Shown piece after piece: positions 1 to 7,953 of a stretch of 7,953 nucleotides of DNA; the first letter of the stretch is position 1; each line of letters opens with the position of its first letter. A model generated the notes under the pieces. It ran no database searches and had not been told where the DNA came from. It worked only from the letters and a program-made list of their open reading frames with translations. Source of the DNA: Candidatus Latescibacterota bacterium (GTDB lineage Bacteria; JAAXHH01; JACQVL01); NCBI GenBank assembly GCA_016209865.1, contig JACQVL010000300.1, positions 1-7,953 on the forward strand, written 5' to 3'. The translations under genes and the position numbers were made by a program.

Positions 1-1127
1 ATGACGAGGCTCTGGTACACCCCCGTCCCGTCGAGGTCGGCCGGATAGACATGGCTGACGGTGGCGACCTGGCGGTTCCGGTCGAACGGCCCCGGCGCGG
101 GCAGGGGCGTCCGCGCTAATAATTCCCCGTCGGTGGCGCGGTGGACGGTAATCCCGCCCGTCCACAGGCTGATGATCTCCTTCACGCCGTCCCCGTCGAC
201 ATCCGCGAACTTGCTCTCGTTCCGGGTCCATCCGGCCTCGGGCGCGGTTGCAGACCAGCGATGCTTCCCGTCGAGGTCGAACAGCCGCAGTTCTTGGGTT
301 GATGTCACGACGAAGATATGGGGAGCACCCCGCTCCTCAAGCCGGAAGAAGTGCACCGTTCCCATTCCCAAGGCGTTCGCATCGTAGCTCCGCCAGACGA
401 CCGGTTTCGGGATCGTCTCCCTCAGATCTGCCAGCCGTCGCTGCGTCGCGTTCATCCGGGCGACCGAGGCTGCGTGTCCCTCTTCCCAGGTCGAGACCAC
501 GATCCCCCGAAACCGGCAGATGGAGTTCATCCGGAGACCGGCAAGCCCCGCCGGATACGTCTGATCGTGTACGTTGGCGACCAGCCGGCCGTCGCACCAG
601 CACCGAATCCGGTCCCCGCACGCCTCGGCGATCAGGTGGTGATACCGCGTCTGGTCGAGAGGAAACCGCTCCTCGCCGAGGACGACGCGATCGTAGTCCC
701 CCCGTCGATAGAGCACCACCCGATCGTAGCCCTCGAGACAGAGCTGATAATACCGCCGCAGGTCCTGCATCCGGAAGACCAGACCGTTGCGGGAGACGCG
801 ACAGTACTCGTCATCGCAGTTGGGGAACGCGCCGGGGATGAACGACCGGACGTGCGCCTCGACCCGGTAGTCGGTCAGATGCGGGTCGGTCGTGACGATC
901 GTCGCCTCGCTCTTGGCGATCTGTTCGAGCGCCTTCCCTTCCTCATCCTCGATGATGAAGAGGTACGTTTCGCTGCGCCAGTGGGGATGGTTGAGCGGGG
1001 CTTCCATGCCCGCGAAGTAGGTGCCCTCACGAGCCTGGCTGGTTTCCCGCCCGCGAAAGAGGAAGCCGACGGGACAGCCGTCGATGTCCGGTTTCACGAG
1101 CGTACGAGTGACGGGAATGGGGGTCAT
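1..1127 (-). CDS. LamG-like / FG-GAP (VCBS) repeat protein, partial (C-terminus off the left edge)
   Basis: I read an uninterrupted minus-strand frame of 375 codons from the ATG at 1127-1125 to the window edge. Residues ~60-215 look like a concanavalin A-type jelly roll (LamG or DUF1080-like): an RVEAHVR strand, then RYYQLCLEGYDRVVLYRR at 125-142, then a GDRIRCWCDGR turn near 171-181 followed by YPAGLAGLR. From ~245 the chain resembles an FG-GAP/VCBS beta-propeller, with calcium-loop-like DVDGDGVKE at 309-317 and DLDGTG at 364-369. No signal peptide or membrane segment is visible at this start, which is odd because such folds are often secreted. The start is fixed by an AAGGAG 5 bases upstream and an ATGA overlap with the kinase gene. 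Cysteines are frequent in the jelly roll (C104, C109, C130, C170, C176, C178, C204). The fold is fairly secure. Substrate and cellular site are unknown, and a carbohydrate-related binding or lyase role is only a guess. Confidence 0.8.
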   Translation of the reverse strand, partial: MTPIPVTRTLVKPDIDGCPVGFLFRGRETSQAREGTYFAGMEAPLNHPHWRSETYLFIIEDEEGKALEQIAKSEATIVTTDPHLTDYRVEAHVRSFIPGAFPNCDDEYCRVSRNGLVFRMQDLRRYYQLCLEGYDRVVLYRRGDYDRVVLGEERFPLDQTRYHHLIAEACGDRIRCWCDGRLVANVHDQTYPAGLAGLRMNSICRFRGIVVSTWEEGHAASVARMNATQRRLADLRETIPKPVVWRSYDANALGMGTVHFFRLEERGAPHIFVVTSTQELRLFDLDGKHRWSATAPEAGWTRNESKFADVDGDGVKEIISLWTGGITVHRATDGELLARTPLPAPGPFDRNRQVATVSHVYPADLDGTGVYQSLV

Positions 1128-1138
1128 GCTGGCTCCTT
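1124..1138 (-). promoter_or_regulatory. Shine-Dalgarno AAGGAG and ATGA stop/start overlap
   Basis: AAGGAG (1133-1138, minus) sits 5 bases before the ATG at 1127-1125. The last base pair positions of the kinase gene form TGA at 1126-1124, so stop and start share ATGA. This is the classic layout for translational coupling. It fixes the start of the FG-GAP gene and places its ribosome-binding site inside the last kinase codons. Confidence 0.85.
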
Positions 1139-2614
1139 ATTTACCTCACGAAACCACTCCTTCAGGATCGGGTACAGGCGGCAGTACTGCCGGTAACTCT
1201 GCTCGTACCGCGCCGCCCGTTCGGCGTCAGGCCGGACCATCTCGCCGAGCTGGATCGCCCGGTCGCACGCCGTCTCAAAGCTGTCGTACACCCCCGTGCC
1301 GACGCCCGCGATGAGCGTCGCCCCGATGGCGGAGGCGTCGTGCAGTTCCATCATCCGTCCGTCTTGCCCGAACACGTCCGTGAGGATCTGCCGCCAGAGG
1401 GGGGACTTGCTCCCACCCTCGCCGAGGCGAATCTCGTGGAGAGGGAGGTTCAACCGTTTGAACCCTTCGAGCGAGTGGCGCAGGTCGAACGCCACGCCCT
1501 CCATCAGAGCGCGCACCATGTGCGCTTTCGTGTGATGGAGCGCCAACCCCAGCCAGCCGCCGCGCGCGTGCGCGTCGGGATGCGGGGTGGCCGCCCCGGC
1601 CAGCCAGGGCATGAAGAACAGCCGGTCACTGCCCGCCGGGACGTGCTCCGCCTGGGCGGTCAACGACTCAAAGCTCTCCCCCCACTGTTCACTCAGCCAC
1701 GACAGGCTGCCCCCGCCGGTGTACGTACAGCCGAGCCAGAAATACTTGCCCGGCACCGCATGGCACATCGGCCAGAGCTGATTGAACGCCGCGTCGTTGA
1801 CTTCTTCCGCGAAGGTCAGCGCGTGTCCGGCCGTCCCGATCCCCACGCCGACGATGCCCGGTTTAATCGCCCCGCTGCCCACGGCCATGCACGCCATGTC
1901 CCCGCCCCCCGCGCACACCGGCGTGCCCGCTGCCAGTCCGGTTTCCTCAGCCGCCTGCGCGGTGATCGTTCCGACGACAGTGGTCGATTCGAACACCGGA
2001 GGGAACAGGTCGCGCCGCACCCGGAGGGCGTCCAGGATGGCGTCACTCCAGTCCCGCGTGTAGAGGTCGAGCGCCGCTGAGACCGACCCGTCCGAGACGT
2101 CTGACGCGAACATGCCGGTCAGCTTCAACCGGACCCAATCCTTCGGGATGAGCACGTACGCCGCCTGCGCGTAACACTCCGGCTCGTGCTCCCGCGCCCA
2201 GAGGACTTTCGCCAGGGTGTTGATGGGGTTAAGGACGTGCAACGCCCGGTCGCGGAGCAGGTCGCCCGCCCGCGCGTTCGCGTCGTCACACTCCCGCTGG
2301 GAGCGGCCGTCGAGCCACAGGATGGCAGGACGCAGCGGCCGGCCGGCCCCGTCCACGAACACCGCCCCGTTCATCTGGCCGGAGAGGGCAATCCCTGTGA
2401 TGTCACGGGACGACGCCCGCAGCGCCTGAACGACCTGGCGGATCGTCTGGCGGACCGCCTGCCACCAGTCGTCCGGCTGTTGCTCCACCCAGGCCGGCTG
2501 CGGGGTCTGAAGGGAATAGCTGGCGCTGGCGGTCGCCACCACCTTCCCCGCCTCGTCCATCAGCATCGTCTTCGTGCTCGACGTCCCCAGGTCGATGCCC
2601 AGGGCCAGAGGCAT
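1124..2614 (-). CDS. FGGY-family carbohydrate kinase, xylulokinase-like
   Basis: This 496-residue cytoplasmic kinase is predicted to transfer phosphate from ATP to a sugar or polyol. The N-terminal phosphate loop is DLGTSSTK (8-15). SGQMNG is at 78-83, IPKDWVRLKLTG at 156-167, the catalytic-base motif GGGD at 236-239 (D239), and TPHPDAHARG at 343-352. EGVAFDLR (372-379) and LGEGGSKSPLW (397-407) complete the C-terminal FGGY ATP-binding domain. Length matches XylB-type kinases (about 480-510). In typical xylulokinases the substrate motif is SGQMHG. Here His is replaced by Asn at 82, and the GTSG-type motif reads GTAG (260-263), so a substrate other than D-xylulose is plausible. I therefore give no gene symbol. 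A TTG at 2632 in the same frame would add six residues, but a strong TAGGAGGT lies within that stretch just before the ATG at 2614, so the ATG is chosen. It is coupled to the next gene by ATGA. Confidence 0.93.
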   Translation of the reverse strand: MPLALGIDLGTSSTKTMLMDEAGKVVATASASYSLQTPQPAWVEQQPDDWWQAVRQTIRQVVQALRASSRDITGIALSGQMNGAVFVDGAGRPLRPAILWLDGRSQRECDDANARAGDLLRDRALHVLNPINTLAKVLWAREHEPECYAQAAYVLIPKDWVRLKLTGMFASDVSDGSVSAALDLYTRDWSDAILDALRVRRDLFPPVFESTTVVGTITAQAAEETGLAAGTPVCAGGGDMACMAVGSGAIKPGIVGVGIGTAGHALTFAEEVNDAAFNQLWPMCHAVPGKYFWLGCTYTGGGSLSWLSEQWGESFESLTAQAEHVPAGSDRLFFMPWLAGAATPHPDAHARGGWLGLALHHTKAHMVRALMEGVAFDLRHSLEGFKRLNLPLHEIRLGEGGSKSPLWRQILTDVFGQDGRMMELHDASAIGATLIAGVGTGVYDSFETACDRAIQLGEMVRPDAERAARYEQSYRQYCRLYPILKEWFREVNKEPA

Positions 2615-2617
2615 GGT

Positions 2618-2625
2618 ACCTCCTA
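2618..2625 (-). promoter_or_regulatory. Shine-Dalgarno TAGGAGGT deciding the kinase start
   Basis: The minus strand reads TAGGAGGT four to five bases before the ATG at 2614-2612. Its position inside the longest possible reading frame rules out the upstream TTG at 2632 as the real start. Confidence 0.85.
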
Positions 2626-2632
2626 AGGGCAA

Positions 2633-2711
2633 TGAAGAGTGAAGAGTGTAGAGTTAAGAGTGAAAGGCCAAAAACTTGCACCACGTCGTGTTTTCCACTC
2701 TTCACTCTTCA
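2633..2711. repeat. Heptamer-based palindromic repeat between phosphotriesterase and kinase genes
   Basis: The left part holds four tandem heptamers on the plus strand: TGAAGAG (2633-2639), TGAAGAG (2640-2646), TGTAGAG (2647-2653) and TTAAGAG (2654-2660). The right part holds two reverse-complement heptamers, CTCTTCA at 2698-2704 and 2705-2711. The segments 2633-2648 and 2696-2711 are perfect 16-base inverted copies around a 47-base loop, so RNA from the operon could form a long hairpin. No T-run follows on the minus strand, so it is not a textbook terminator. The right arm extends over the phosphotriesterase stop codon. It may be a dispersed intergenic repeat family, a transcript processing or stability element, or an attenuator. 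Sequence alone does not decide. Confidence 0.85.
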
Positions 2712-3628
2712 CTTGTTAAGAACCGGCGCGGATTATGGATGAGGAGGTCATCGATGGCGGCAGGACTGAACCCTTCCGCCCGCAGGCGGGGGATGAACTT
2801 CGTCAACACGAAATCCAGTCCCGGCCCGCCGCCGTAGCTGCGCCAGTAGCTCGGCCGGCCCAGGTCGTTGCCCAGGAGGATGCGCGTGCCCAGTCCGGCG
2901 TCGATCAATCGCCGCAAGACAGTGTTGCGCAACTCATCCGGGCCGTACTTGATCTTGCCGGGACAGTCATACCCTACGTACGCGCCCGTCTCCGCGATCC
3001 GCCGGTGCTCCCAGAAGTCCGGGTTGCGGTCGATGTGACTCAGACAGATGCGGTGCGGTTCCACACCGAATGACGTCAGGTACTCCACCTGCTCGTACCC
3101 CATCGTCCCGGCTTCGGTGTGGGTGATGATCGGAACACCCGTCTCCAGGTGGACTTTCGCCGCGATGCGCAACAGTTTTTTATCGCGTTCGGTGAACGTA
3201 TTGTACCCCGTCCCGCCCTTCATGATGCCCGCCTTGATGCCCGTCCCGTCGATCCCCTCGGTGATATCCCGCACACATGCCCGGATCAGGTCGCTCTCGT
3301 CCGTCTGCCAGACCGACCGGTCGCAGTAATACGGCTTGTTGTACCCGGTGATGACGATGATGTGGACGTTGGGCACCAGATCGGACACCCGTTTCACCTT
3401 ATGGATGTTCCGCCCGAAGTCGATCGCGGACATCTCGATGATCGTTCGCCCGCCCGCCTGCATCCACGTTTCCAGCTCCTCGGCGGACTTCTCCACGTCG
3501 TTCAACCGGAAGTCCCGGTCTTCCCGCAGCAGCCATTCGGGCGCATCGAACGCTAAGTGCTCATGGTAATCGACGATCCCCAGGTCCCGTCCGGCCACTT
3601 CGCCGCGTATGGGCATCACAGATGCCAT
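2702..3628 (-). CDS. Phosphotriesterase-family metal-dependent hydrolase (probable lactonase)
   Basis: This 308-residue amidohydrolase-superfamily TIM barrel has the full binuclear metal set of the phosphotriesterase family. H22 and H24 are in YHEHL, K137 (the lysine expected to be carboxylated) is in AGIMK, H170 is in THTEAG, H198 is in LSHIDRNPD, and D255 is in LGNDLG. The SYWRSYGGGPGL segment (260-271) and the TFTERDKKLLR/TGVPIITHT region resemble the bacterial phosphotriesterase-like group whose studied members open phosphorylated sugar lactones, rather than true organophosphate hydrolases. Lactonase activity is therefore inference. No signal peptide is seen, so it is probably cytoplasmic. 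The start is the ATG at 3628, 6 bases after AGGAGG. A TTG eight codons upstream would place the Shine-Dalgarno site inside the gene. The last codons (Ser-Glu-Glu-stop) lie in the heptamer palindrome, so the C-terminus was probably shaped by that repeat. Confidence 0.93.
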   Translation of the reverse strand: MASVMPIRGEVAGRDLGIVDYHEHLAFDAPEWLLREDRDFRLNDVEKSAEELETWMQAGGRTIIEMSAIDFGRNIHKVKRVSDLVPNVHIIVITGYNKPYYCDRSVWQTDESDLIRACVRDITEGIDGTGIKAGIMKGGTGYNTFTERDKKLLRIAAKVHLETGVPIITHTEAGTMGYEQVEYLTSFGVEPHRICLSHIDRNPDFWEHRRIAETGAYVGYDCPGKIKYGPDELRNTVLRRLIDAGLGTRILLGNDLGRPSYWRSYGGGPGLDFVLTKFIPRLRAEGFSPAAIDDLLIHNPRRFLTSEE

Positions 3629-3633
3629 GCCAT

Positions 3634-3642
3634 TCCTCCTCT
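3634..3642 (-). promoter_or_regulatory. Shine-Dalgarno AGAGGAGGA deciding the phosphotriesterase start
   Basis: The minus strand carries AGAGGAGGA with its AGGAGG core at 3635-3640, six bases before the ATG at 3628-3626. This favours that ATG over the upstream in-frame TTG at 3652. Confidence 0.85.
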
Positions 3643-3660
3643 GCAATCGCAAAGAACACT

Positions 3661-3766
3661 TTCACCACAAAGACACAAAGGACACCAAGAAGGATCAATA
3701 TGTGAATTCCCTTTGTGCTCTGTGTGCCTTTGTGGTGAACACACCGTTACACCCTCTGTGGTTAAC
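3661..3766. repeat. CCACAAAG-type imperfect palindromic repeat between creatininase and phosphotriesterase genes
   Basis: TTCACCACAAAG (3661-3672) and CTTTGTGGTGAA (3728-3739) are perfect 12-base inverted arms. The complementarity continues imperfectly inward for roughly 18 more bases (ACACAAAGGACACC against GTGCTCTGTGTG). A third, direct unit CCTCTGTGGTTAAC (3753-3766) matches CCTTTGTGGTGAAC (3727-3740) at 12 of 14 positions and contains the creatininase stop codon. From memory, sequences built on CACAAAG/CTTTGTG words are a recurrent intergenic repeat in many environmental bacterial genomes. Short open frames across it read as repetitive Thr/Lys- or Cys/Leu-rich peptides and are not genes. 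A hairpin could form in the operon RNA, but no T-run marks it as an intrinsic terminator. Confidence 0.85.
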
Positions 3767-4517
3767 AATGATGTTCCAGGAATTCCTGCCACACCTTCAC
3801 GATGCTGGCCACGCACGCGTGAAACCAGCGCTCGCCTTTGGCGGCCGTGGCCACCGTCGCGTCCCCGAACACCCCCGACTGGCTCAACGCGCCCATCGGG
3901 AGCGAGGACATCTCGTAATCCATCGAACGCGGCGGGTATTCCCGCACCACCCGGTCGATCCGCACGAGCTCCGGACGCAGGTAGAGCATGAGGGACGTCT
4001 CGAATTCGTCCGCATGAAAATTCATCGGCATCCACATCGGGGATTCAGCATCGCTGAGGATGTCACGCAGGTTGGGATAGAAGGCGTTCAGGATGTTCAG
4101 GGCGAGTTCGTCCGACAGGTCGCGCATCGCGTACTTGAGCGGCTGCTGGTTCGCGCCGTGGGCCGACAGCAGGAGTAGCGCCCGGCAGCCGTTGCGGTGA
4201 AGACTGCGGGCGATGTCTTTGATCACGGCGAGGAACGTGTTGAGCGAGAGGGTGAGCGAGCCGGGATAGTCGCGCCAGACCCATGAATAGCCGATCGGAA
4301 GGGCGGGCAGCACCAGGCCAGTGGTCTGTTCCGCCACGCGGGCGGCCAAGCCTTCGGCGAGGATCGTGTCCGTATTCTGCGGGAGATGCGGCCCGTGCTG
4401 TTCCGTCGCGCCGAGCGGCAGGATCGCGTACGGGTGACGGGCTAAGAATTCTCGGCAGTCCAGCCAGGTGGCGGTCGCGGCGTCGAGCCAGCGAGGGTGA
4501 TCAGATGGGTGAGCCAT
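3762..4517 (-). CDS. Creatininase-family (creatinine amidohydrolase superfamily) metal hydrolase
   Basis: This 251-residue protein has the usual family length and fold signals. PLGATEQHGPHLP at 34-46 contains E39 and H41, and D50 is in QNTDT. SAHGANQQPL (118-127) contains H120, and FHADEFETS (167-175) carries E171 in the place of the usual HAGEFETS block. These are the conserved metal and catalytic positions of the family, which hydrolyses cyclic amides or, in some branches, ring ketones. No signal peptide is seen, so it is probably cytoplasmic. The ATG lies only 7 bases after the DUF5916 stop. I see no Shine-Dalgarno motif in front of it, so translation may depend on ribosomes finishing the upstream gene. 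True creatinine hydrolysis is unlikely to be the role in this setting. A branch acting on diketo-inositol (IolN-like) is one possibility, given the sugar kinase downstream. The stop codon lies in a repeat unit. Confidence 0.92.
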   Translation of the reverse strand: MAHPSDHPRWLDAATATWLDCREFLARHPYAILPLGATEQHGPHLPQNTDTILAEGLAARVAEQTTGLVLPALPIGYSWVWRDYPGSLTLSLNTFLAVIKDIARSLHRNGCRALLLLSAHGANQQPLKYAMRDLSDELALNILNAFYPNLRDILSDAESPMWMPMNFHADEFETSLMLYLRPELVRIDRVVREYPPRSMDYEMSSLPMGALSQSGVFGDATVATAAKGERWFHACVASIVKVWQEFLEHHC

Positions 4518-4524
4518 GATGGAG

Positions 4525-7008
4525 TCACACGTTCAGCCAGTAGTTGAACTTAACCAGGAAGAGATTCGTTCCTTGCCGTAAGTCACTGAAGCCCTGCTGC
4601 AGCCCCTGAAATGAGCGGGCGAATGAGGGATCCTGGGAAAAGGCACTCCAGGATCGGGACCAGACGAAGAACATCGTGCTGCCCGGCCGGTACTCCCAGC
4701 GGAGGACGGTGTTGCTCCGCAGGGATCGGGAGCTGAAATCGGGGTTGAAAGAGACGCCGGTGTAGGAGGTGAACTCATAGGACGCGGCGCGTGCCAGTTC
4801 CTTGAAATTCTTGTACGCTCCGACGGCCACGAACGGTTGCATGTAGAACTGCAAGGTCAGATTGCGATTGAAGAGCACATCCGCCCGCGTCGTCAGATCC
4901 AGCACCTGACTCGTTAATTCCCCGTAGGCATAGTGATCATTGATCCCATCTCCGTTATCATCGACGTTCGTGACCCATTGCGCGTTATTGAAGTACCAGC
5001 TATACCGGGGTCCGGTGCTGACCTCGAAGCGGGTCGAAGGGCGGATGGTGATGTACGGGCTCAACGAACGCCAGGAACTACCACCGGTGTTGGAGCCCCA
5101 AGAAGAGGAGAAGTTCGCCCGCACCGGTTTGCGGCTATCCGTCGAGAGAAAGACGAAGAAACTGTGACTCGCCGGGTTGATGATGGAAGGGCCGCCACGA
5201 GTGTCCAGATCATCCAGCGTCTGGAAGTTTCCGTTCACCCCACCCCCGACAAACCAGAAATTCTGCAATTCCCCGTTGAAGAAGACGCCGAGCCCTCGCC
5301 CCAGGTTCGCCCGTTTGTAGTTCCATTGATTCCACTGGTTCATACTCGCGAACATGCGGCGGAAGGGGCCCCAATTTCGGCTCTTCTGCAGTCCCAGCCA
5401 GAGTCGTGCGTTGATCTGGTTTACCCGGAAGATAAACCCCAGGTCGCTGGCGTTAAACTGGGGCGAGAGGGCTTCAAACGACACTTCTCCCGTGAGCCAT
5501 CCATTCCGTTTCGCCAGCTCGACCTGTCCCGCGTAGCCACTCTGCCGATTCGTGAAGCTTCCGGCCCGGCTGCCCGCGACCTGGCCTGAGATGCCGTACG
5601 TGTTCTGATGCCACTTCAGGTTCCAGTCGACCCCTCCGGTGTAGGCGGGTTCGGCATCGTGCCGGTTGACCGCGGTTGCGATGATCCCCACGTTGGAATT
5701 CCCGCCCATGATGTCCTGCTGGACTCGCCCGATCAGGTAGTTGGTCAACGGCTCGATCCGCGCGTGCTGCCGCTCGGTGCGCGTCAGCCCGGTCACCGGG
5801 TCGGTGATCGTCTGTTCGACCGTCGCCTCTTCGGAGGACGTCACCGCTTCCAGGAGGCCGAACGTCGTCTTGTGCTCTGTCTTTCCGGTCAGCTTGGCCG
5901 CCCCTAAAATCGTCGTGAAGTCGGGCTGATCAACAGGGATAGCGCCAGCGGGGATGGACAAGTATCCCGGCCGCCGGCCAATCCGGCGGGAATAGAACAG
6001 TTGGAACGGTGTCTGGAACGTACTCGACCCCTCGACGAAGAACGGACGCCGTTCCTGGTAGTACGTCTCGAACACAGACAGGTTGAGCACAGCCGGGTCA
6101 GCATCCACCTGCCCGAAGTCCGGGTTGAACGTGGCGTTCAGGGAGATATTAGAGGTCAGGCCATAGCGCACATCCACGCCCGCGTTGGAGAAGTATTTTC
6201 GGCCGTCGGGGTTCGCCGTGAGATTCTTCGGCTCGAACGTCGAGCGGGTGACGGCATACGGGAGCACTTCCAGATGAGTCGGGGGATGAATGCCCCTGAT
6301 CCCCTCCAGATGGCCGAACAGGGAGACCCACCCGCGCTTCTGGAGGGGCTTCAACACCCACTGATCCCACTCCCGTTTCCGGCTGATAGTCCGGTTGATG
6401 TTGATCCCCCAGGTATATTCCTCCTTCGGACTGAAGCGAAGGTTGTAGTACGGGATCTTGAACTCTGTACTCCACCCTTTCTCGTGGATGGCGACCCGGA
6501 CGTCCCACACCCCATCCCATGTCCAGTCATCCCAGTCATCATTAGACGTAGACCCGTCCTGCACTGATCCACTGGCCATCACCGCGAACCAGTACCCGGT
6601 CTGATGGTCAAGATAGGGATCCAGGCTGATGGAAATCCGATCCGCATCGACAAACTGGTCTCGCCGGGCCAACCGGGTCACGATCTTCTCCGGCTCCCGG
6701 TCGTAGGCCATCACTCCGATGTAGAGAGCTTCGTCGTCGTAGGCGATCTGGATGGTCGTGGATTCGGTGGGGGCGACCCCTTCGGTCGGTCGCTGCTGGA
6801 CGAACCCGGAGGCGACGGGCGCGTACTGCCAGATTTCATCGTCGAGGAGACCATCGATTTTAGGGGGGGTTGGGTTCACCCGAACGGCGGTCATGATTTT
6901 TTCAGGGTGGGTTTTCCCTGTTTCTTCGGCTGAGAGAGGGGGAGAAAGACCGAGCACAATGAGAAGGAGAACGACCGGGCAACACCTCATGCGATACGTC
7001 GCATCCAT
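4525..7008 (-). CDS. CBM9 / DUF5916 outer-membrane beta-barrel protein
   Basis: This is an 827-residue exported protein. An N-terminal signal peptide (1-27) has a basic start, a hydrophobic VVLLLIVLGL core and probable cleavage after LSA. A CBM9-type beta-sandwich follows (~42-220), with KIDGLLDDEIW at 50-60, then YDDEALYIGV and DRISISLDPY. The rest is DUF5916, recognised by NPDFGQVDADPAVLNL, YYQERRPFFVEG and LFYSRRIGR in the middle, and by LQFYMQPFV and LRWEYRPGSTMFFVW near the end. The C-terminus alternates aromatic and polar residues (KFNYWLNV), as in outer-membrane barrels. The loop DDNGDGIND looks able to bind calcium. The frame stays open for 248 codons upstream, but that part runs antisense to the DUF362 gene and across the promoter region. 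The ATG at 7008 is chosen because GGAGG lies 8 bases before it and a signal peptide begins there. A second Met at residue 7 would also work. Role in carbohydrate binding or uptake is inferred. Confidence 0.93.
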   Translation of the reverse strand: MDATYRMRCCPVVLLLIVLGLSPPLSAEETGKTHPEKIMTAVRVNPTPPKIDGLLDDEIWQYAPVASGFVQQRPTEGVAPTESTTIQIAYDDEALYIGVMAYDREPEKIVTRLARRDQFVDADRISISLDPYLDHQTGYWFAVMASGSVQDGSTSNDDWDDWTWDGVWDVRVAIHEKGWSTEFKIPYYNLRFSPKEEYTWGININRTISRKREWDQWVLKPLQKRGWVSLFGHLEGIRGIHPPTHLEVLPYAVTRSTFEPKNLTANPDGRKYFSNAGVDVRYGLTSNISLNATFNPDFGQVDADPAVLNLSVFETYYQERRPFFVEGSSTFQTPFQLFYSRRIGRRPGYLSIPAGAIPVDQPDFTTILGAAKLTGKTEHKTTFGLLEAVTSSEEATVEQTITDPVTGLTRTERQHARIEPLTNYLIGRVQQDIMGGNSNVGIIATAVNRHDAEPAYTGGVDWNLKWHQNTYGISGQVAGSRAGSFTNRQSGYAGQVELAKRNGWLTGEVSFEALSPQFNASDLGFIFRVNQINARLWLGLQKSRNWGPFRRMFASMNQWNQWNYKRANLGRGLGVFFNGELQNFWFVGGGVNGNFQTLDDLDTRGGPSIINPASHSFFVFLSTDSRKPVRANFSSSWGSNTGGSSWRSLSPYITIRPSTRFEVSTGPRYSWYFNNAQWVTNVDDNGDGINDHYAYGELTSQVLDLTTRADVLFNRNLTLQFYMQPFVAVGAYKNFKELARAASYEFTSYTGVSFNPDFSSRSLRSNTVLRWEYRPGSTMFFVWSRSWSAFSQDPSFARSFQGLQQGFSDLRQGTNLFLVKFNYWLNV

Positions 7009-7216: not shown

Positions 7217-7953
7217 ATGATACAGACACGCGCGACTGTCGGCCTGGCGGCGGGGACAGACCGCCGGGCGAACGTCCGGGCTGCGCTGGAGCACGTCCGG
7301 GAGAGTCTGATCACCGCCGTCCGTGATCGGGTCATGATCAAACCCAACTTTCTGTCGAGCTCCAACCCGGTGGCCTGCACGCACGCGGATGCGGTGCGGG
7401 GAGTGCTCGACGTCCTGGCGACCCTGCCACGCAAGCCGAAGCGGGTGATGATCGCGGAAGGGGGGAACGAATCGTACTCCGGCGAAGCGTTCAAGAACTT
7501 CGGGTACACCAGCCTGCCGGAGGAGTATGACCTCCCCATCCGGTTGATCGACCTCAACCAGGAGACACGCTGGCAACCCGCCCGGGTGTATCTCGTGGAC
7601 GGCAGCATCGCGTTCGTCCGGATGCCCCGGACGGTGCTCGACTGTCCCTGCACGATCTCCGTCGCCGTCGCCAAGACGCACGACGCCGCCATCGTGACGC
7701 TCGCGCTGAAGAACATGATCATGGGGACGCTCCGGAAGAAAGACCGGATCAAGATGCACGGCTATCGGTCGCACGGACAGCGGATACTCCCGCGCGAGGC
7801 CCAGGTGCTCAACCGCAACCTCATCCGCGTTGCCCGGTTCCTCGCCCCGGATTTCGCGGTCATCGACGGGACGGTCGGCCTGCAGGGCAACGGGCCGGGC
7901 GGGACGGATACCACTCCCCTCGGCCTGGCGGTGGCGGGCGCGGACGTGTTCGC
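7217..7953 (+). CDS. DUF362 domain protein, partial (C-terminus off the right edge)
   Basis: A plus-strand frame of 245 codons is open from the ATG at 7217 to the window end. It shows the DUF362 pattern: MIKPNF at 40-45, THADAVRG soon after, then CPCTISVAVAKTHD, then TLALKNMIMGTLRKKDR, and near the edge IDGTVGLQGNGPGGT followed by a PLGLAVAGAD strand. No signal peptide is seen at this start. Many DUF362 proteins are associated with iron-sulfur clusters and some carry a C-terminal ferredoxin domain. That part would lie beyond the window, so it cannot be checked. The biochemical role of the family is not settled. The gene is divergent from the operon and may share its control region, but a functional link is only positional. 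Confidence 0.9.
   Translation, partial: MIQTRATVGLAAGTDRRANVRAALEHVRESLITAVRDRVMIKPNFLSSSNPVACTHADAVRGVLDVLATLPRKPKRVMIAEGGNESYSGEAFKNFGYTSLPEEYDLPIRLIDLNQETRWQPARVYLVDGSIAFVRMPRTVLDCPCTISVAVAKTHDAAIVTLALKNMIMGTLRKKDRIKMHGYRSHGQRILPREAQVLNRNLIRVARFLAPDFAVIDGTVGLQGNGPGGTDTTPLGLAVAGADVF

Follow-up and report, generated by a model that had tools for sequence, protein, structure and literature searches.

A conserved CRN-PTE-FGGY gene trio in uncultured bacterial phyla: a putative catabolic cassette for a sugar-derived compound

Gene layout and intergenic repeats

The window, meaning the whole 7,953-base stretch of DNA analysed, is an entire contig (C269), one of 356 in a fragmented MAG of 3.75 Mb that is 83% complete and that we provisionally place as Poribacteria-type. 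Five minus-strand open reading frames run in the order DUF5916 protein, creatininase-family protein (CRN), phosphotriesterase-family hydrolase (PTE), FGGY carbohydrate kinase and FG-GAP protein (Table 1). A DUF362 gene (7217-7953), divergent from this run, is also cut by a contig end. Open reading frame and Pfam analysis bore out the arrangement described in an earlier note on this DNA, namely the five genes, their order, a 7-base gap between the DUF5916 and CRN genes (4518-4524), and an ATGA overlap between the FGGY kinase and FG-GAP genes (1124-1127). Between CRN and PTE lie 133 bases (3629-3761), and between PTE and FGGY a further 87 (2615-2701). The short gaps and common strand suggest that the five genes could be read as a single transcript, and the DUF5916 and FG-GAP genes may be co-transcribed with the three between them in the window. 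Scans of the window for promoters and terminators gave results close to chance level, hence they neither support nor break an operon.

Table 1. Features of the window, with their coordinates and supporting scores
Feature	Position	Strand	Details
Levanase-type ConA-like module with FG-GAP repeats	1-1127	-	FG-GAP_3 28.9 bits; gene cut by contig end
FGGY carbohydrate kinase, XylB-like but divergent	1124-2614	-	496 aa; FGGY_N/C 236/85 bits; TIGR01312 448.6 bits
Second dispersed palindromic repeat, PTE-FGGY gap	2633-2713		Tandem and inverted repeat; fold z -4.2; at least about 8 further copies
Phosphotriesterase (PTE)-family hydrolase, phospho-furanose-lactonase-like	2702-3628	-	308 aa; PF02126 189.5 bits
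Dispersed palindromic repeat, CRN-PTE gap	3661-3739		29-bp arms; RNA fold z -4.5; at least about 30 further genome copies
Creatininase-family metallohydrolase (CRN), cassette gene 1	3762-4517	-	251 aa; PF02633 226.5 bits
CBM9-like/DUF5916 outer-membrane-type protein	4525-7008	-	Pfam DUF5916 (PF19313) 265 bits

Both wide gaps hold palindromes repeated across the genome, hence gap width is little guide to operon boundaries at this locus. The two palindromes belong to different dispersed repeat families, with copy numbers that are lower bounds, as 40 of 211 candidates were scored. The repeat in the PTE-FGGY gap extends into the PTE gene, providing its final codons and stop. No RNA family was found in the window using Rfam. 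At two other loci (L043 and L046, 9828-10000 in each), the CRN-PTE gap is a single long imperfect hairpin of about -90 kcal/mol, with a sequence unlike the window repeats.

The earlier note held that all five family assignments rested on intact motifs. Pfam backs those of the PTE, creatininase, FGGY and DUF5916 proteins, but CRN has an alanine at position 122, CBM9_1 falls below threshold in the DUF5916 protein (19.9 against 23.4 bits), FG-GAP_3 was narrowly passed (28.9 against 26.9 bits), and the LamG domain claimed for the truncated FG-GAP protein has no Pfam match up to E 10. Instead, the N-terminal half of this protein matches the levanase ConA-like module of structures 4azz and 4b1l (E 2.9e-7), which we take to be CBM66. 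An AF2 model of the FG-GAP protein, built without an alignment, had a pLDDT of 32 and was set aside.

Conservation of the three central genes

The search of genome contigs for PTE returned 17 loci, of which one (L054, from Marmoricola, at 30% identity) was set aside as distant. The other 16, together with the window, give a sample of 17 genomes, and the addition of G172 makes 18. CRN and PTE genes are adjacent on the same strand in 14 genomes (the window, L039-L047, L049, L050, L052 and L055), and in 11 of these, counting the window, FGGY follows directly, giving a fixed same-strand order of CRN-PTE-FGGY. The carriers are Poribacteria, Latescibacterota, Gemmatimonadota-labelled MAGs and Armatimonadota, with named Poribacteria MAGs among the nearest. 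FGGY lies on a separate contig from CRN-PTE at three loci (L039, L040 and L052), the three genes are on three different contigs in G048, and at L051 PTE-FGGY is present but the contig stops short of where CRN would lie. At L053, PTE-FGGY is accompanied by no CRN detectable in the genome (G053) at E 1e-50, and in G172 a GNAT gene separates PTE from FGGY, with no CRN on the contig carrying them. The FGGY subfamily is present in each of the 18 genomes; a search of 16 PTE genomes found it in all of them, unlinked cases included.

The same association emerges from gene content. Among 64 genomes from the phylum of G044, PTE occurs in seven; CRN was found in six of these seven and in none of the other 57, and the PTE of the seventh is cut at a contig start. 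High-scoring FGGY kinases occur in all seven PTE genomes and in seven others, such that FGGY is also found without PTE and CRN in this phylum. Fisher tests gave p 9e-8 for PTE with CRN and p 6e-6 for PTE with FGGY, although the genomes are related and the draws therefore not independent. In the window's own phylum, where the comparison relatives were 15 genomes of one order, high-scoring forms of CRN, PTE and FGGY are confined to the same three genomes. Pairwise protein distances are correlated between CRN and PTE (r 0.82), PTE and FGGY (0.74) and CRN and FGGY (0.72), each matched in 0 of 5000 permutations, a pattern that fits shared inheritance or block transfer, with co-evolution and shared descent not separated by the permutation test. 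Where FGGY occurs without PTE and CRN in MAGs from the G044 phylum (L098-L104), a DAO-type FAD oxidoreductase precedes it, and WelO5-type and Gfo/Idh/MocA genes are often close by.

The earlier note had proposed a functional unit of five genes, of which the middle three are conserved, whereas tblastn searches with the DUF5916 and FG-GAP proteins found neither at any other cassette locus. The DUF5916 protein is also multicopy, with eight matches across seven contigs of the window's genome; for the FG-GAP protein, no close relative was found in the same genome. Hence both are local neighbours outside the conserved module. That all five genes might still form an operon, with substrate entering through the DUF5916 barrel and the FG-GAP protein assisting, gains from the common strand, the 7-base gap, the ATGA overlap, and the proximity of another DUF5916 copy to sugar-acid genes; this is nevertheless unlikely, given the absence of the outer genes from the other loci, the multicopy nature of the DUF5916 gene, and an FG-GAP protein start that, on inspection of its sequence, has no obvious signal peptide. 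The other DUF5916 gene (L096, contig C278 of G000, 5437-13300) is 61% identical to that of the window, and its neighbours encode a galactonate dehydratase (373 bits against a cut-off of 311), a Gfo/Idh/MocA protein and a kinase-PD40 fusion.

Relationships of the three enzymes

CRN has both the superfamily score (PF02633) and the fold of the creatininase family, with its AF2 model matching creatininase structures at a TM of about 0.72 (E 7e-16), while falling under every equivalog cut-off. It resembles creatininase (1j2t), MftE and IolN in having most of the metal-ligand motifs, with E39, H41, D50, H120, H168, E171 and E173 invariant across 12 sequences. However, Glu122 of creatininase is replaced by alanine in all 12, and CRN scores 141.1 bits on the creatininase model TIGR04448 (cut-off 235), 118 bits on MftE (also below its cut-off), and 66.4 bits on the IolN model NF041098 (cut-off 245). 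The last of these gives no support to the analogy drawn in the earlier note with the Thermotoga IolN inositol pathway, which includes a creatininase-family hydrolase. An IolN-type route for inositol, a cyclic polyol, would account for the proximity of a creatininase-family protein and a kinase, and for the MDR or Gfo/Idh/MocA dehydrogenases close by in some relatives. Yet it is an improbable reading, as IolN is the poorest of the three scores and the neighbouring dehydrogenases scanned are below the equivalog level of IolG (98 against 355 bits, at a locus without CRN) and IolM (24 and 55 against 450 bits).

The nearest solved structures to PTE are 3pnz (258 bits), which we take to be from Listeria, and 3msr, presumably from Mycoplasma synoviae, as is 3ovg. 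The ligand set of PF02126 is intact, with H22, H24, K137, H170, H198 and D255 invariant in 14 sequences, as are K227, R258 and Y261, which align with identical residues in 3pnz and 3msr; in E. coli PHP, the lysine and tyrosine of this trio are absent. Work on 3msr reportedly found that this Lys, Arg and Tyr trio holds the substrate phosphate, and K227, R258 and Y261 presumably do likewise. The window PTE therefore shares its binuclear-metal ligands and Lys/Arg/Tyr set with the phospho-furanose lactonases (NF045706; 3msr, 3ovg and 3pnz), but differs from them in the genes it is linked with, one creatininase-like and the other for an FGGY kinase, and in scoring 208.2 bits on NF045706, so far under the cut-off of 630 that the claim is one of working like a phospho-furanose lactonase, not of membership. 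Quorum-quenching or detoxifying lactonases exist within the PTE family (e.g. PMC3781021, PMC4068969), and PLL structures match the window PTE at about 160 bits. That it is an enzyme of this type, linked to its neighbours by accident, is nonetheless highly improbable, as the PLLs score far under 3pnz and do not align at K227, R258 and Y261, and PTE keeps its link with a sugar kinase in several phyla.

The kinase is a full-length FGGY protein that, like xylulokinase XylB (2itm), passes the XylB model TIGR01312, with 448.6 bits over a cut-off of 380. On this basis the locus might serve ordinary D-xylose catabolism. However, a paralog on contig C199 of the same genome reaches 602 bits, such that the window kinase is not the genome's best xylulokinase candidate, and in a tree the cassette kinases split from three xylulokinases of the C199 type with 100/100 support, on a long branch of 2.14. 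Furthermore, the XylB motif GQMH, whose histidine we take to be a substrate-site residue, is GQMN in the window kinase, with asparagine in 11 of 11 kinases of alignment A3 (N82, invariant among the aligned cassette kinases), whereas paralogs retain GQMHS. Xylose isomerase is absent from the window. Hence the xylose reading is very unlikely. The idea in the earlier note of a carbohydrate kinase acting together with a lactonase-type enzyme is supported.

A putative route and its variable partners

CRN-PTE-FGGY is supported as a cassette by its conserved gene order, by the co-occurrence of the three genes and their correlated divergence, and by metal-ligand residues that are intact. From the sequences, it is probable that these three genes encode a cytoplasmic catabolic cassette acting on a sugar-derived compound, most likely a sugar acid or lactone. 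The FGGY kinase would phosphorylate a keto-sugar, sugar acid or lactone at its terminal hydroxyl; the PTE-family enzyme, with its two-metal centre, would hydrolyse a sugar lactone, probably phosphorylated; and the creatininase-family enzyme would hydrolyse another intermediate in this route, either cyclic or amide-like. The products would then enter central metabolism via variable partners, such as the dehydrogenases, enolase-superfamily enzymes and transporters encoded near the cassette in some relatives. Weighing against the cassette reading are the variability of these neighbouring metabolic genes, the occurrence of FGGY without PTE and CRN, and the two PTE-FGGY genomes showing no CRN (G053, and G172 on its contig).

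The earlier note envisaged an undescribed catabolic route for a cyclic polyol or a sugar lactone, of which the former shares the poor support of the inositol reading, leaving a module of three genes that most likely serves a sugar acid or lactone. More tentatively, it is possible that the cassette represents an undescribed catabolic pathway, sporadic across uncultured phyla. A sugar-derived lactone or keto-sugar would here be processed sequentially by a ring-opening hydrolase of the creatininase family, a phospho-sugar lactonase and an FGGY kinase with a substrate other than xylulose. A literature search on the gene combination, DUF5916 and the creatininase family found nothing describing such a cassette.

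As the earlier note observed, no dehydrogenase or transporter is in view within the window, but in some relatives the cassette has neighbours of the dehydrogenase, dehydratase-like or transporter kind. A sugar-type ABC binding protein and permease follow PTE-FGGY at L053, an SSF symporter follows FGGY at L049, an MDR dehydrogenase gene is directly upstream of CRN at L041, and an amidohydrolase and an aldo-keto reductase adjoin an unlinked FGGY at L093. None of the neighbouring metabolic genes is constant, hence neither a full nor a single pathway can be read from context. Enolase-superfamily proteins are encoded near L040, L042, L049 and L055; the possibility that they supply a constant partner for the pathway was rejected, as the members match different subfamilies, nearly all below cut-off.

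This tightly conserved and uncharacterised set of three enzymes from uncultured phyla, all of them soluble-looking proteins, lends itself directly to substrate screening. Knowledge of its function would annotate the cassette in 18 genomes, as well as one more branch of the creatininase family. Several of the MAGs carrying the cassette appear to be marine, judged by isolate name.
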